Source: Sideroxydans sp. CL21 (GTDB taxonomy: Bacteria; Pseudomonadota; Gammaproteobacteria; Burkholderiales; Gallionellaceae). From it: a stretch of 64,000 bases of DNA. The notes under the pieces are model-generated. The model did not search any database. It saw nothing but the letters and a program-made list of their open reading frames with translations, and had not been told where the DNA came from. The first letter of the stretch is position 1; the number at the start of each line of letters is the position of its first letter. The position numbers and the translations under genes are program-made. Location: positions 1,252,501-1,316,500 of the forward strand of contig NZ_LR699166.1 of assembly GCF_902459525.1 (NCBI RefSeq). Direction: 5' to 3'. Positions 46,713 through 51,626 of this stretch are shown here, piece by piece.

Positions 46713-47924
46713 TTATGCTCGAAGCGTTAGCACTTCTGCACCTTGCTTAATCTTGTCCAGATAATCCGCCCATTGCTGCATCATGGCGCGGCGTTCTGCA
46801 AGGTGTGCTGTACGGTTGTATGCGCGCCCATTGGGGTCGCGTACGGCATGGGCAAGTTGATGTTCTATGAAGTCGGGGCGCACCTGTAAAACTTCATCCA
46901 AGATGGTACGCGCCATGGCACGAAAGCCGTGACCACTCATTTCATCTTTGGCAAATCCCATGCGGCGCAGTGCGGCCAATACTGCATTGTCACTCATTGG
47001 CCTGCCATTCGTTCGCGCCCCTGGAAACACATAACGTCCATCGCCTGTTAATGCGTGCAGTTCGCGAAGAATTTCTATTGCTTGGGTGGATAGGGGAACA
47101 AGGTGTGGTTCGCGCATCTTCATACGAGCTGCGGGAATGTTCCACTCGGCCTTATCTAAGTCAAACTCTGCCCATTCGGCTTTACGTAGTTCCCCAGGGC
47201 GTACAAAGAATAGGGGGGCGAGGCGGAGAGCGCACTTGGTAACGAACGCGCCTTTATAACCATCCATGGCGCGCAGAAGGTCGGCGATTGCCATAGGATC
47301 GGTAATGGCGGCATGGTGTTCTTGTTTTACTGGGGGTAGGGCACCCTTGAGGTCTGGAGAAGGGTCGCGATCGGCGCGTCCCGTTGCTATGGCATAACGG
47401 AAAACCTGCCCGCAATTTTGGAGCGCACGATGTGAAGTCTCGACTGCTCCGCGTTCTTCAATCCTGCGGAGAGTGGCAAGCAACTCTGGCGCTTTGATTT
47501 CAGCTATTGGCTTTCCGCCAATCCAAGGGAATATGTCGCGTTCAAGCCGTTTGATGATTCTATCGGCATGGTTGGCTGTCCAGGTATTGGATTGTTTTGC
47601 GATCCATTCGCGTGCAACGATTTCAAAGCTATTAGCTGCGCGTTCGGATTTTGCTGCCTTGGTGGCTTTGCGGTGTTCGCTGGGATCAATATCGTTTGCG
47701 AGTTGCTTGCGGGCTTCATCGCGCCTGGATCGAGCGTCGGATAGGGTTACGTCTGGATATACGCCCAAGGCGAACCGCTTTTCCTTTCCGCCAAAACGAT
47801 ATTTGAGCCTCCAATACTTTGAGCCGTTCGGCATCACCTCCAGATACATTCCGCCGCCGTCTGCCATTTTGTAGGGTTTGGCTTCTGGTTTGGCTTTCTT
47901 TACCGCCGGGTCTGATAGCTTCAT
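46713..47924 (-). CDS. int: Tyrosine recombinase/integrase, P4 type
   Basis: The 403-residue integrase has the DUF4102-like N-terminal arm-binding domain (MKLSDPAVKKAKPEAKPYKM ... RFALGVYPDVTLSDAR), a core-binding SAM-like domain (about residues 100-185) and the catalytic domain with Arg in FVRPGELRKAEW, HxxR in HGFRAMARTIL, His in LAHAV and Tyr in RAYNRTAHLAERRAMMQQW(ADYLD). All catalytic residues are present, so it may be active. It points away from ssrA and lies 178 bases from its 3' end, the standard arrangement for islands at this site. Confidence 0.95.
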   Translation of the reverse strand: MKLSDPAVKKAKPEAKPYKMADGGGMYLEVMPNGSKYWRLKYRFGGKEKRFALGVYPDVTLSDARSRRDEARKQLANDIDPSEHRKATKAAKSERAANSFEIVAREWIAKQSNTWTANHADRIIKRLERDIFPWIGGKPIAEIKAPELLATLRRIEERGAVETSHRALQNCGQVFRYAIATGRADRDPSPDLKGALPPVKQEHHAAITDPMAIADLLRAMDGYKGAFVTKCALRLAPLFFVRPGELRKAEWAEFDLDKAEWNIPAARMKMREPHLVPLSTQAIEILRELHALTGDGRYVFPGARTNGRPMSDNAVLAALRRMGFAKDEMSGHGFRAMARTILDEVLQVRPDFIEHQLAHAVRDPNGRAYNRTAHLAERRAMMQQWADYLDKIKQGAEVLTLRA

Positions 47925-48101: not shown

Positions 48102-48471
48102 TGGTGGAGGCGGCGGGAATTGAACCCGCGTCCGCAAGTCCTCTACAGGCAGTTCTACATACTTAGTCTGGTTGTTTAATTTTATCCGGCAGACGCCAAC
48201 CGACAGGCTGCTACAGGACGAGTCACCTTAATTTTAGCTTCGTACAAAGTAACCCTGTACGACACGATTCTGTGTAAATGACCTCACTCATCGCGGTATT
48301 GCTACCTTGAGCCCCTCCACAGACAGCGGGGTGTGAGGTCTAACCGGTTAAGCGGCTAGAGCGTACTTTTCGTCGTTTGCGACTATTGGTTTTCCAGCTG
48401 ATTTACGAGGTTGCGGGTCCTCGGTATGCCCTACGCTGCTTTGTAACCCACGTCGAAGCCAGGTCGCCCCC
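48102..48471 (-). ncRNA. ssrA: tmRNA
   Basis: Transfer-messenger RNA rescues stalled ribosomes and tags the nascent protein. The minus strand has the 5' end GGGGGCGACCTGG..., the tag ORF ANDEKYALAA followed by a stop (about 48361-48393), pseudoknot-rich middle, and the tRNA-like 3' end with GGTTCAATTCCCGCCGCCTCCACCA at 48102-48127. The 3' end, including the encoded CCA, is intact although the island sits right beside it. Length about 370 nt fits one-piece tmRNA. Confidence 0.96.
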
Positions 48472-48509: not shown

Positions 48510-49889
48510 TTACTTCGGCTTGTTCTGCAGCAGGGAGCGGGAGAAGTGGCGGTCAGCCTTGGTGGCATGCGAAGAGAACCAGTCGAGCAGTAGCAGTTCG
48601 GTACGGAAGGCGAGGTAGCGCGGGTCTTCCTTGCCGATTCTGGCTTTCTTTTCCAGTTCGGAAAAATTTTCGATGAAGCGCTTGTGCTCCTGGGCATGGC
48701 CATCGGCGAAGGGGTAATTGCGCTCCCGCATCATTTTTTCTTCTATGGGGAAGAGTTGTTGGGTGTGCTGCGCGAGGAAGGGGAAAATGTCGGCAAACTT
48801 GCCGCAGTCGTTTTGATCGATTTGTGCGGAGAGTGTGTTGATGTGTTCCATCAAAACATGATGTGCCGCGTCGACTTCCGGCAAGCCGGTATGTTGGTCT
48901 TCTTTCCATGCCAGCCCGGTCTGCAGTTCTCCGGTTCCCAAATGCTGTCCGGTGGCCTGAAATTCGTAGCAGCGCTCCAGGTAGAAGAGGGCAGGAAAGT
49001 CCTCTGGGGAAATATCGATGCACTGCCTGAGCAGCGGGATGGCTTTCTCGGTGTCTTTCAGGTGGTAATAGGCGACCGCCTTTTCGAATATCTCCAGGGT
49101 TTCCCGTTTACTGTTACGCAGTTCTTCGGGGTTGTTGTCGAAGACTTCATAAATGGAAAGCGGCTGTGATTTGCCTTTGACGCGAATGCGGTCCAGGAAT
49201 CGGATGTCGAATTTTTTTGGGTCGGCCAGGTCGTACAAAGTGTTCTGGCTGATGATGAGGGGCGCATGGTAGGTCTTGGTGGCTTCTTCGATGCGCGAGG
49301 TCAGGTTCACGGCATCGCCGATCACGGTGCTGTCCATGCGGTTGATGCCGCCCACCGTGCCGATCATCACCACGCCCGTGTTCAGGCCGATGCCGACGTT
49401 GATCGGCTCGTAGCCCGCACGTATGCGTCCGGCATTGTAATAATCCAGCCGTTCCTGCATGGCGATGGCACCGCTGACTGCATCATCCGCGCCTTTTTCG
49501 AACAGGGCCATGATGGTGTCGCCGATGTATTTGTCGATGATGCCGTGATGGCGGCTGATGACGGGTTCCATCTGGCCGAGATACGAATTGATGAACTCGA
49601 AGTTTTCCGTCGGGGTCATGGATTCCGATAGCGGAGTGAAATCGCGGATGTCCGAGAACAGAATGGTCATTTTGCGTTCGACCTGGTCGCCCAGCTTTAC
49701 ATCCACGATGCTTTTGGCTTCGAGCAGGTGGAGCAATTGATGCGGGATCAGCCGACTATACGCCGCCTCGGTCTGTTGCAGCAGAGTCAACGCCTGTTGA
49801 TGGGCGATGATGACTTTGTGCAATATCTCCTGGATATTGTCTTGTGTTGGATTGGTGGATGTGTCATCTCCCCCGGCTTTCTTGTTCAT
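48510..49889 (-). CDS. Class III nucleotide cyclase fused to a hemerythrin-like domain
   Basis: The 459-residue protein has a short helical N-terminus, a class III cyclase domain (about residues 70-255) with metal-binding Asp in TILFSDIRDFT and DKYIGDTIMALF and the Asn/Arg pair in GDAVNLTSRIEEA, a linker with TPR-like sequence, and a C-terminal bacteriohemerythrin domain (about 330-455). In the latter, His in DAAHH, HAQEH and HATKAD are kept, but the His of the usual HFxxEE motif is Leu (QLFPIEEKMM). ATG 49889 has AGGAG upstream. It probably makes cAMP or cGMP in response to oxygen, redox or iron state; this is inference. Confidence 0.9.
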   Translation of the reverse strand: MNKKAGGDDTSTNPTQDNIQEILHKVIIAHQQALTLLQQTEAAYSRLIPHQLLHLLEAKSIVDVKLGDQVERKMTILFSDIRDFTPLSESMTPTENFEFINSYLGQMEPVISRHHGIIDKYIGDTIMALFEKGADDAVSGAIAMQERLDYYNAGRIRAGYEPINVGIGLNTGVVMIGTVGGINRMDSTVIGDAVNLTSRIEEATKTYHAPLIISQNTLYDLADPKKFDIRFLDRIRVKGKSQPLSIYEVFDNNPEELRNSKRETLEIFEKAVAYYHLKDTEKAIPLLRQCIDISPEDFPALFYLERCYEFQATGQHLGTGELQTGLAWKEDQHTGLPEVDAAHHVLMEHINTLSAQIDQNDCGKFADIFPFLAQHTQQLFPIEEKMMRERNYPFADGHAQEHKRFIENFSELEKKARIGKEDPRYLAFRTELLLLDWFSSHATKADRHFSRSLLQNKPK

Positions 49890-49935
49890 GCTCTCCTGCC
49901 CGGATTTCTTGTTATGTAGGGCATCATACCGCCGT

Positions 49936-50589
49936 TCAGTTCTGGATGTAACGCAGCAGGGCAAAGGGTGTTAGTACGCTGCCGGAGGCAGGCCAGGCGG
50001 TTAGATCCGCAACCGGATCGATATAGCCGTATGCCGCGATGATGCCAGTCATGCCTGCGGCCTGTGCTGCTTCCATGTCGCGCAGATCGTCGCCCAGATA
50101 GAGGCAGTTTTCCGGGATGACCCCCATCAGATCTGCCGCGTGCAGCAACGGCATCGGATGCGGTTTGGCGCGTGCGCAGGTATCGCCACTAACCAGACAG
50201 GCTGCGCGTTTGGCATAGCCGAGTTTTTCCATCAGCGGAACGGTATAGCGGTGCGGCTTGTTGGTGACGATGCCCCAGGGCAGATCGTGCCGCTCCAGTT
50301 CGGCAATCAGCGCTCCCATGCCGGGGAACAGGACAGTGTTGTCGCAGATGTGACTTTCATAATGCTGCAGGAATGCATCGCGCAACGCTTCGTAATTGGG
50401 CGCGTCCGGCTCGACGTTCATTCCCAGTTTGAGCAGTCCGCGCGAGCCATGAGAAGCCTGCAGACGGAGAATCTCGATGGGTAAAGGTGGCAGGTCGTGC
50501 AACTCACGCACATGGTTAAGTGCCGCACCCAAGTCGGGGGCGGAATCAGCGAAGGTGCCGTCGAGATCGAAGAGAACTGCCTGAATCAC
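49936..50589 (-). CDS. gph: Phosphoglycolate phosphatase-type HAD hydrolase
   Basis: The 217-residue HAD-superfamily enzyme has the nucleophile motif FDLDGTFADS, motif II in IVTNKPHRYT, the motif III Lys in RAKPHPMP and motif IV LGDDLRDMEAA. Next to ubiG it matches the betaproteobacterial Gph that removes 2-phosphoglycolate. It starts with GTG one base after the ubiG stop codon, so translation is coupled. Confidence 0.9.
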   Translation of the reverse strand: MIQAVLFDLDGTFADSAPDLGAALNHVRELHDLPPLPIEILRLQASHGSRGLLKLGMNVEPDAPNYEALRDAFLQHYESHICDNTVLFPGMGALIAELERHDLPWGIVTNKPHRYTVPLMEKLGYAKRAACLVSGDTCARAKPHPMPLLHAADLMGVIPENCLYLGDDLRDMEAAQAAGMTGIIAAYGYIDPVADLTAWPASGSVLTPFALLRYIQN

Positions 50590-50590
50590 G

Positions 50591-51286
50591 TTAGTCTTTG
50601 CGGCAAGCGGCCATGTAATTGACGCTGGTATCGTGCCCGAGGGAGTAGCTCTTGTTCAGCGGGTTATAGCTCATGCCTGTGATATCCGAAACAGTCAGCC
50701 CCGCATCGCGGCACCATTGCGCGAGCTCGGAAGGTTTGATGAATTTGGCGAAGTCGTGCGTTCCGCGCGGCAGCAGATTGAGTACATATTCCGCGCCGAG
50801 GATTGCGAACAGGTACGACTTCGGGTTGCGGTTCAGCGTGGAGAAGAACACATGTCCGCCCGGCTTCGCCAGTTGGGCGCAGGCTGCGACCACGGCGGCG
50901 GGATCGGGTACATGTTCCAGCATCTCCATGCAGGTCACCACGTCGTAATGGGCGGGGCGCTCGGCAGCCAGCTCTTCCACTGCCACCTTGCGGTATTCCA
51001 CCTGCATGCCGCTTTCCAGCAAGTGCAGTTTGGCGACTTGCAACGACTTGTCTGCAAGGTCGATGCCCGTCACCTTGGCGCCGGACGCTGCCAGGCTCTC
51101 CGTCAAAATGCCGCCGCCGCAGCCCACATCCAGCACCGTCTTGCCGGAAAGAGACGCGATGCGGTCGATGTACCCAAGGCGCAAAGGGTTAATCTCGTGC
51201 AGAGGCTTGAATTCGCTGTTCTTGTCCCACCACTTGTGGGCGAGTTGCGAGAATTTTTCCAGTTCGATAGGGTCGGCGTTGGACAT
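50591..51286 (-). CDS. ubiG: Ubiquinone biosynthesis O-methyltransferase
   Basis: UbiG does both O-methylations of ubiquinone synthesis using S-adenosylmethionine. The 231-residue product has [25 protein letters not shown] at the front (positions near 51180-51260), the SAM-binding [13 protein letters not shown], and [14 protein letters not shown] 51286 ([12 protein letters not shown]) fits the family start; the ORF upstream to 51505 reads repeat sequence and is not coding. It is first in the ubiG-gph-cyclase run. Confidence 0.96.
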
Positions 51287-51449
51287 GGCGTGGGCTCTTG
51301 TTGACAGGTAAGCGACTTTAACAAAACTACCGGCTAATAGCCAAACTAAGAAGGTGGGCTGGCCGGTAGTCGGCGCGGGAGGGGGGCGCGACTGAGCGAA
51401 TGGATCGCTGCGTAGCAGCGGGGAACCCATCGGCCTACTCCTTGCGGGT

Positions 51450-51626
51450 GCGTTACTGCGTAAGCAGCCGATTGCGGGAGCGACTGCCTGCAGCCCCTCC
51501 CGCACCGTCGGCTCCGCCGCACCGTGTCAGGGGGCGGTCGCGACGCGTTACTGCGTAGCAGCCGATTGCGGGAGCGACCGCGTGCAGCCCCTCCCGCACC
51601 GTCGGCTCCGCCGCACCGTGTCAGGG
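51450..51626. repeat. Tandem direct repeat, two copies of about 82 bp
   Basis: Copy one is 51450-51532 and copy two 51545-51626, period about 95 bases, with only a few differences in the shared part. Each contains CTGCGTA(A)GCAG, GATTGCGGGAGCGAC and CCCGCACCGTCGGCTCCGCC. A third partial copy of the CTGCGTAGCAG piece is at about 51409-51420. They lie just upstream of the gyrA -10 box. Confidence 0.85.

Follow-up and report, generated by a model that had tools for sequence, protein, structure and literature searches.

What can a hemerythrin sensor report when one of its iron ligands has been replaced, and how does its signalling partner use the answer? The question is raised by a gene in a 64,000-nucleotide stretch of the Sideroxydans sp. 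CL21 genome (the window; NZ_LR699166.1, positions 1,252,501 to 1,316,500), which joins a nucleotide cyclase to a hemerythrin domain whose second helix carries Leu at the place of a His ligand. A first-pass annotation made from the sequence alone had placed the gene at 48510..49889, and these coordinates are right: it is one gene of 459 codons, read from the ATG at 49889 on the minus strand, which also carries all other features located below by window coordinates. A likely ribosome-binding site, AGGAG, lies 3 nt 5' of the start codon (49893..49897).

A cyclase-hemerythrin gene and its neighbours

The open reading frame and its domain matches gave a product (P0001, 459 aa) ordered as an N-terminal class III cyclase, TPR-like helices and a C-terminal bacteriohemerythrin domain. 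The cyclase domain (residues 72-242; 49164..49676) matched Pfam Guanylate_cyc (PF00211) at 5.8e-19 and PDB 3r5g at E 8e-28. All of the metal and transition-state residues that the first-pass annotation had credited to it were found, namely the metal pair D80 and D124, the adenylyl-type, adenine-selecting K120 and D186, and the transition-state N195 and R199; in 53 homologues these were invariant except for D186, which was D or E in 50. The protein is best explained as a soluble class III adenylyl cyclase, with cAMP synthesis predicted from these residues. The genome carries 11 cyclase matches and 16 cNMP-binding domains, which are thus possible readers for the cAMP output.

The TPR-like helical linker (residues about 255-313; 48951..49127) was assigned from weak TPR matches with sub-threshold Pfam scores, from model helices and from TPR structural matches. 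The hemerythrin domain (residues 326-453; 48531..48914) matched TIGR02481 at 9e-21, with 74 bits against a cut-off of 51.75, and Pfam Hemerythrin weakly (3e-6, 28 bits, residues 335-448). AlphaFold2, given the family alignment as input, predicted the cyclase part poorly and with low confidence, and in the hemerythrin domain it placed helices A (337-358), B (365-389), C (395-418) and D (423-455) with a pLDDT of about 90. The closest structure match to this model was DcrH-Hr (Z 17.7, 132 residues, rmsd 2.3), and the bacterial single-domain hemerythrin 4xpx scored Z about 16. With the TIGR02481 score above its cut-off and the DcrH-Hr match, the modelled domain has the bacteriohemerythrin fold, and its overall fold is that of a normal four-helix hemerythrin.

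The nearest named records were those of Sideroxydans, Sideroxyarcus and other Gallionellaceae, which are freshwater iron oxidisers. Homologues at E 1e-80 or better were found in 75 of 158 Gallionellaceae genomes, so that hemerythrin-cyclase fusions, supposed at first to be uncommon, are not so within this family. In 300 sampled genomes of the order, family members included, 12 had a homologue, and full-length relatives of the fusion also occurred elsewhere in the phylum. By locus comparison, the conserved neighbours were a gph-like phosphatase gene directly upstream (49936..50589), a ubiG-like methyltransferase gene (50591..51505) and ssrA, encoding tmRNA, directly downstream (48102..48471). 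The order ubiG, gph, cyclase-hemerythrin gene, ssrA was kept in most of the Gallionellaceae loci long enough to show it, indicating that the cyclase-hemerythrin gene is an old resident; it is probably co-transcribed with gph. The ssrA gene is a usual integration target, and an integrase gene (46713-47924) lies just past its 3' end in the window, as does an integrase match beyond ssrA at one other locus (L045). A search of the window for a repeat of the ssrA end, as would mark an attachment site, found none.

Iron ligands across the fusion family

The canonical hemerythrin motif, H-HxxxE-HxxxH-HxxxxD, consists of five His, a Glu and an Asp (PMC9388753). The window protein reads H343 - L379xxxE383 - H398xxxH402 - H441xxxxD446 and thus keeps six of the seven ligands, as the first-pass annotation had held: the Fe2 ligand H343 in helix A (48861..48863), the bridging carboxylate E383 (48741..48743), the Fe1 ligands H398 and H402 in helix C (48684..48698), and the Fe1 ligand H441 with the bridging D446 in helix D (48552..48569). 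The exception is L379 (48753..48755), which occupies the position of the helix-B His, an Fe2 ligand. With this Leu the protein lacks the complete motif of O2-binding hemerythrins and, one of seven ligands being replaced, the conserved-ligand feature of hemerythrin redox or oxygen sensors (PMC9388753). It has the other feature of such sensors, the fusion to a signalling domain in one polypeptide, here as a single open frame and across 93 distinct proteins. Because O2 binding takes place at Fe2, classical reversible O2 binding by the window hemerythrin is unlikely as judged from its ligands.

These 93 different proteins carrying both domains, the cyclase first in every one, formed our sample of fusions. 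At column 379 we counted H in 37, L in 20, S in 14, I in 8, C in 6 and other residues in 8, so that His379 was absent from 56 of the 93, and the column ranked 92nd of 128 by conservation in the family alignment. H343 was retained in 78 fusions and lost in 15. The Fe1 side was kept throughout, with H398 and H402 in 93/93 and H441 in 92/92 (one gap), and the bridging carboxylates were nearly as constant, E383 and D446 each being present in 92/93 (one Glu for D446). Across the sample the Fe2 His pair was thus lost singly or together, and the three Fe1 His were never lost. All 41 family members without H379 kept the Fe1 ligands and both carboxylates (for H441, the 40 with a residue there).

As a control we used 94 hemerythrins without a cyclase fusion, taken from ten same-genus genomes. 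In these, His379 was present in 88, H343 in 92 and the Fe1 ligand H398 in only 85. Since His379 was absent from 56 of the 93 fusions and from 6 of the 94 controls (Fisher p about 5e-16, a statistic that ignores relatedness), its loss is, on these sequences, neither chance nor a sequencing slip. In a published survey, 58 of 327 bacterial hemerythrin sequences were altered, as scattered cases and mostly in helix C, where 45 ligand changes were counted against 11 in helix B (PMC2556348). Both the control and the survey are biased to helix-C/Fe1 changes, so the cyclase fusions run opposite to the usual pattern. Within the window's own genome, the helix-B His is missing only from the window protein and from a paralogue at 1.79 Mb, which is 55% identical and has an N-terminal stretch that looks membrane-spanning; the other 15 of the 17 hemerythrin matches keep it. 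The paralogue (L062, genome 1794870-1796174) belongs to a group with L032-L038, L057 and L072, in which a hydrophobic, probably membrane-spanning N-terminus goes with Ser or Cys at the helix-B His position. As a separate observation, single-domain hemerythrins stand in adjacent pairs in at least two genomes, one member being canonical and the other having Gln in place of the helix-B His (L224/L227, G014 C8 465020-465741; L236/L239, G007 C2 206768-207495).

The history of the ligands was read on a tree built from the cyclase and linker only, with the hemerythrin domain left out; it was made by a quick method and has several long branches, so that the counts are approximate. The minimum numbers of ligand/non-ligand changes were six at 379, seven at 343, one each at 383 and 446, and zero at 398, 402 and 441. 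By changes of residue identity, H398, H402 and H441 were the three slowest of the 128 columns, and column 379 had at least 20 changes. Most of the proteins without His379 belong to a single large clade of Gallionellaceae, whose members exchange L, I, M, T, Q, S and C at position 379; the position there is, by its residues, free to vary and not fixed as Leu. The loss is common to most close relatives of the window protein; His379 is found in some of them (L031, L136), so the state at 379 can vary or revert. H343 and His379 are both lost in, for example, L015, L016, L017, L020, L101 and L067. The comparison of relatives at this His, which the first-pass annotation had proposed, thus bore out the loss itself but not the picture of a single-protein oddity, since the loss is clade-wide and recurrent. 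Taken together, the ligand columns support the view that evolution has left the Fe1 site of cyclase fusions intact and has worn down their Fe2 site time and again.

A mirror case was observed in L156, L157, L162, L164 and L107-L109, which keep the helix-B His and have Leu, Thr or Ala in place of the helix-A His. Two further homologues, L138 (G410) and L030, one with an in-frame TGA and one without H441, come from fragmented assemblies and may reflect sequence errors.

Candidate ligands and readings of the metal site

A missing His may be made good by a neighbour, and the first-pass annotation had named the His four residues earlier as the possible true ligand, in which case the site would be a normal diiron site. 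This residue, H375 (48765..48767), lies one turn before L379; it is present in several L379 relatives and is enriched among the fusions (43/93). The alignment is ungapped there, however, and column 375 has Y, D, Q, R, N or other residues in half of the fusions, with Y375 in at least seven relatives with L379 and D, N and Q also occurring without H379. Moreover, H375 stands beside an intact H379 in 15 control hemerythrins, and in an idealised helix, a rough geometry, any metal on E383 is 8 A or more away from the 375 C-beta, beyond the reach of His. We regard replacement by H375 as scarcely credible.

Among residues fixed only in proteins without H379, no clear metal ligand emerged, the candidates being N351, E401, F405, R429, L433, D436, F438 and R451. 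H448 was considered as a new ligand and rejected, because fusions with H379 intact share it and because two turns of the helix separate it from H441; we judge it, from its distribution, to be a coupling or family mark. It was found in 91% of cyclase-coupled hemerythrins and in 3% of the others. With R447 it forms a signature (48546..48551), a possible coupling surface, which about 91% of cyclase-coupled hemerythrins carry directly after their Asp ligand. The helix-D residues common to cyclase-coupled hemerythrins as compared with others (Y425, F428, R429, L432, D436, R447, H448 and R451) are a candidate surface for contact with the linker. In helix B, Pro381, two residues before E383, occurred in 26 of the 56 fusions without H379, in none of the 37 with it and in none of the controls; being confined to proteins without H379, it suggests that helix B has been locally rebuilt around the lost ligand, as appears from the sequences. 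F438, which takes the position of the Leu of the O2 pocket, occurred in 52/56 fusions without H379 and in 10/37 with it, with too few independent pairs to separate this from ancestry.

Three further readings of the site have to be weighed. In an asymmetric diiron site, H343 and the two bridging carboxylates would still hold Fe2 firmly, with water as a further ligand; the domain would be an ordinary diiron redox sensor, predicted to oxidise faster and to form no stable adduct with O2. The retention of H343 in 78/93 and of both carboxylates in 92/93 fusions is what such a site would show, but H343 changes at least seven times on the tree, including joint loss with 379 (e.g. L015, L067), and the residues that replace His at 379 are mostly hydrophobic (L, I, M) or S/C, none of them fixed; we hold this reading to be unlikely, though a serious contender. 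A set of three His with a carboxylate is able to hold several metals, and the remaining site might bind Zn, Mn or a structural iron and sense no redox change, regulation coming through other inputs. This is improbable, as the hemerythrin relatives in the same genome are otherwise canonical. A degenerate, metal-free domain retained only for dimerisation would fit the weak Pfam score and the loss of one Fe2 ligand; set against the Fe1 His, the slowest-evolving columns of the domain, it is very improbable.

The reading we prefer, by somewhat better than even chances, is a redox- or iron-responsive adenylyl cyclase switch in which the hemerythrin has a complete Fe1 site, its Fe2 site being either missing or weak and labile. 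Fe1 would be bound by H398, H402, H441, E383 and D446, leaving Fe2 with H343 only, and the loss of the Fe2 ligand would loosen Fe2 or do away with it, and the O2 adduct likewise. The site would then hold a single iron, to which we give somewhat less than even chances, or a tight iron together with a loosely held second one. The remaining Fe1, with three His and two carboxylates, could serve as a one-electron redox site or as a reporter of iron supply, and its oxidation state or iron loading would alter helix packing. The helix-D signature and the TPR-like linker may relay this change to the cyclase dimer, for which the cyclase part of the model is of low confidence, which would in this way set how much cAMP reaches the CRP-type regulators of a microaerophilic iron oxidiser. 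As a counterpoint, the bridging carboxylates are also invariant, though strictly they would be dispensable to a site with one iron only; H343 is kept in most relatives, including the window protein, so a second, weakly bound metal is possible. Of the first-pass suggestions, that of a mono-iron sensor is supported, with Fe1 spared and Fe2 eroded, for a family and not for one odd protein. Extended to the family, the proposal becomes more tentative, and somewhat under even: hemerythrin-coupled adenylyl cyclases would be a sensor family that has, time after time, cut the diiron O2 site down to a single iron, yielding a natural mononuclear hemerythrin through which iron or redox state is signalled to cAMP in iron-oxidising bacteria.

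Comparison with known hemerythrin and cyclase systems

The literature search for hemerythrin with adenylate, adenylyl or nucleotide cyclase, which covered only a minority of subscription papers, found no described hemerythrin-class III cyclase fusion. A genome paper on Sideroxydans and Gallionella gives PAS, GGDEF, kinase and chemotaxis domains as the partners in its table of hemerythrin fusions, with no column for cyclases (PMC3770913). CyaB-type class III adenylyl cyclases share with the window protein a catalytic domain with the full metal, K/D and N/R set, but have other regulatory domains and no hemerythrin. The DcrH hemerythrin domain of Desulfovibrio vulgaris, fused to an MCP, is likewise a bacteriohemerythrin fold placed as a C-terminal sensor on a signalling protein, but it has all seven iron ligands and a chemotaxis output, with no class III cyclase. 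In Bhr-DGC of Vibrio cholerae and Bhr-HD-GYP of Ferrovum, a hemerythrin domain is joined to an enzyme of second-messenger turnover and its redox state switches that turnover (PMC9388753); they differ in acting on c-di-GMP instead of cAMP, in an N-terminal hemerythrin and in a complete ligand set. Hemerythrin-like domains of P1B-5 ATPases also have non-canonical ligands in a hemerythrin fused to another function (PMC9388753), but there it is helix C that differs (HxE in place of HxxxH), the site is still diiron and the partner is a transporter.

If the proposal is true, cAMP joins the outputs of hemerythrin sensors, in bacteria living at the Fe(II)/O2 boundary. Natural relatives with and without His379 are available for comparison, which makes testable the question of why a hemerythrin sensor needs two irons. 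Unlike the known altered hemerythrins, which are scattered, the cyclase fusions are a case in which one type of output coincides with a loss that runs in one direction, striking the Fe2 site and leaving Fe1 frozen.
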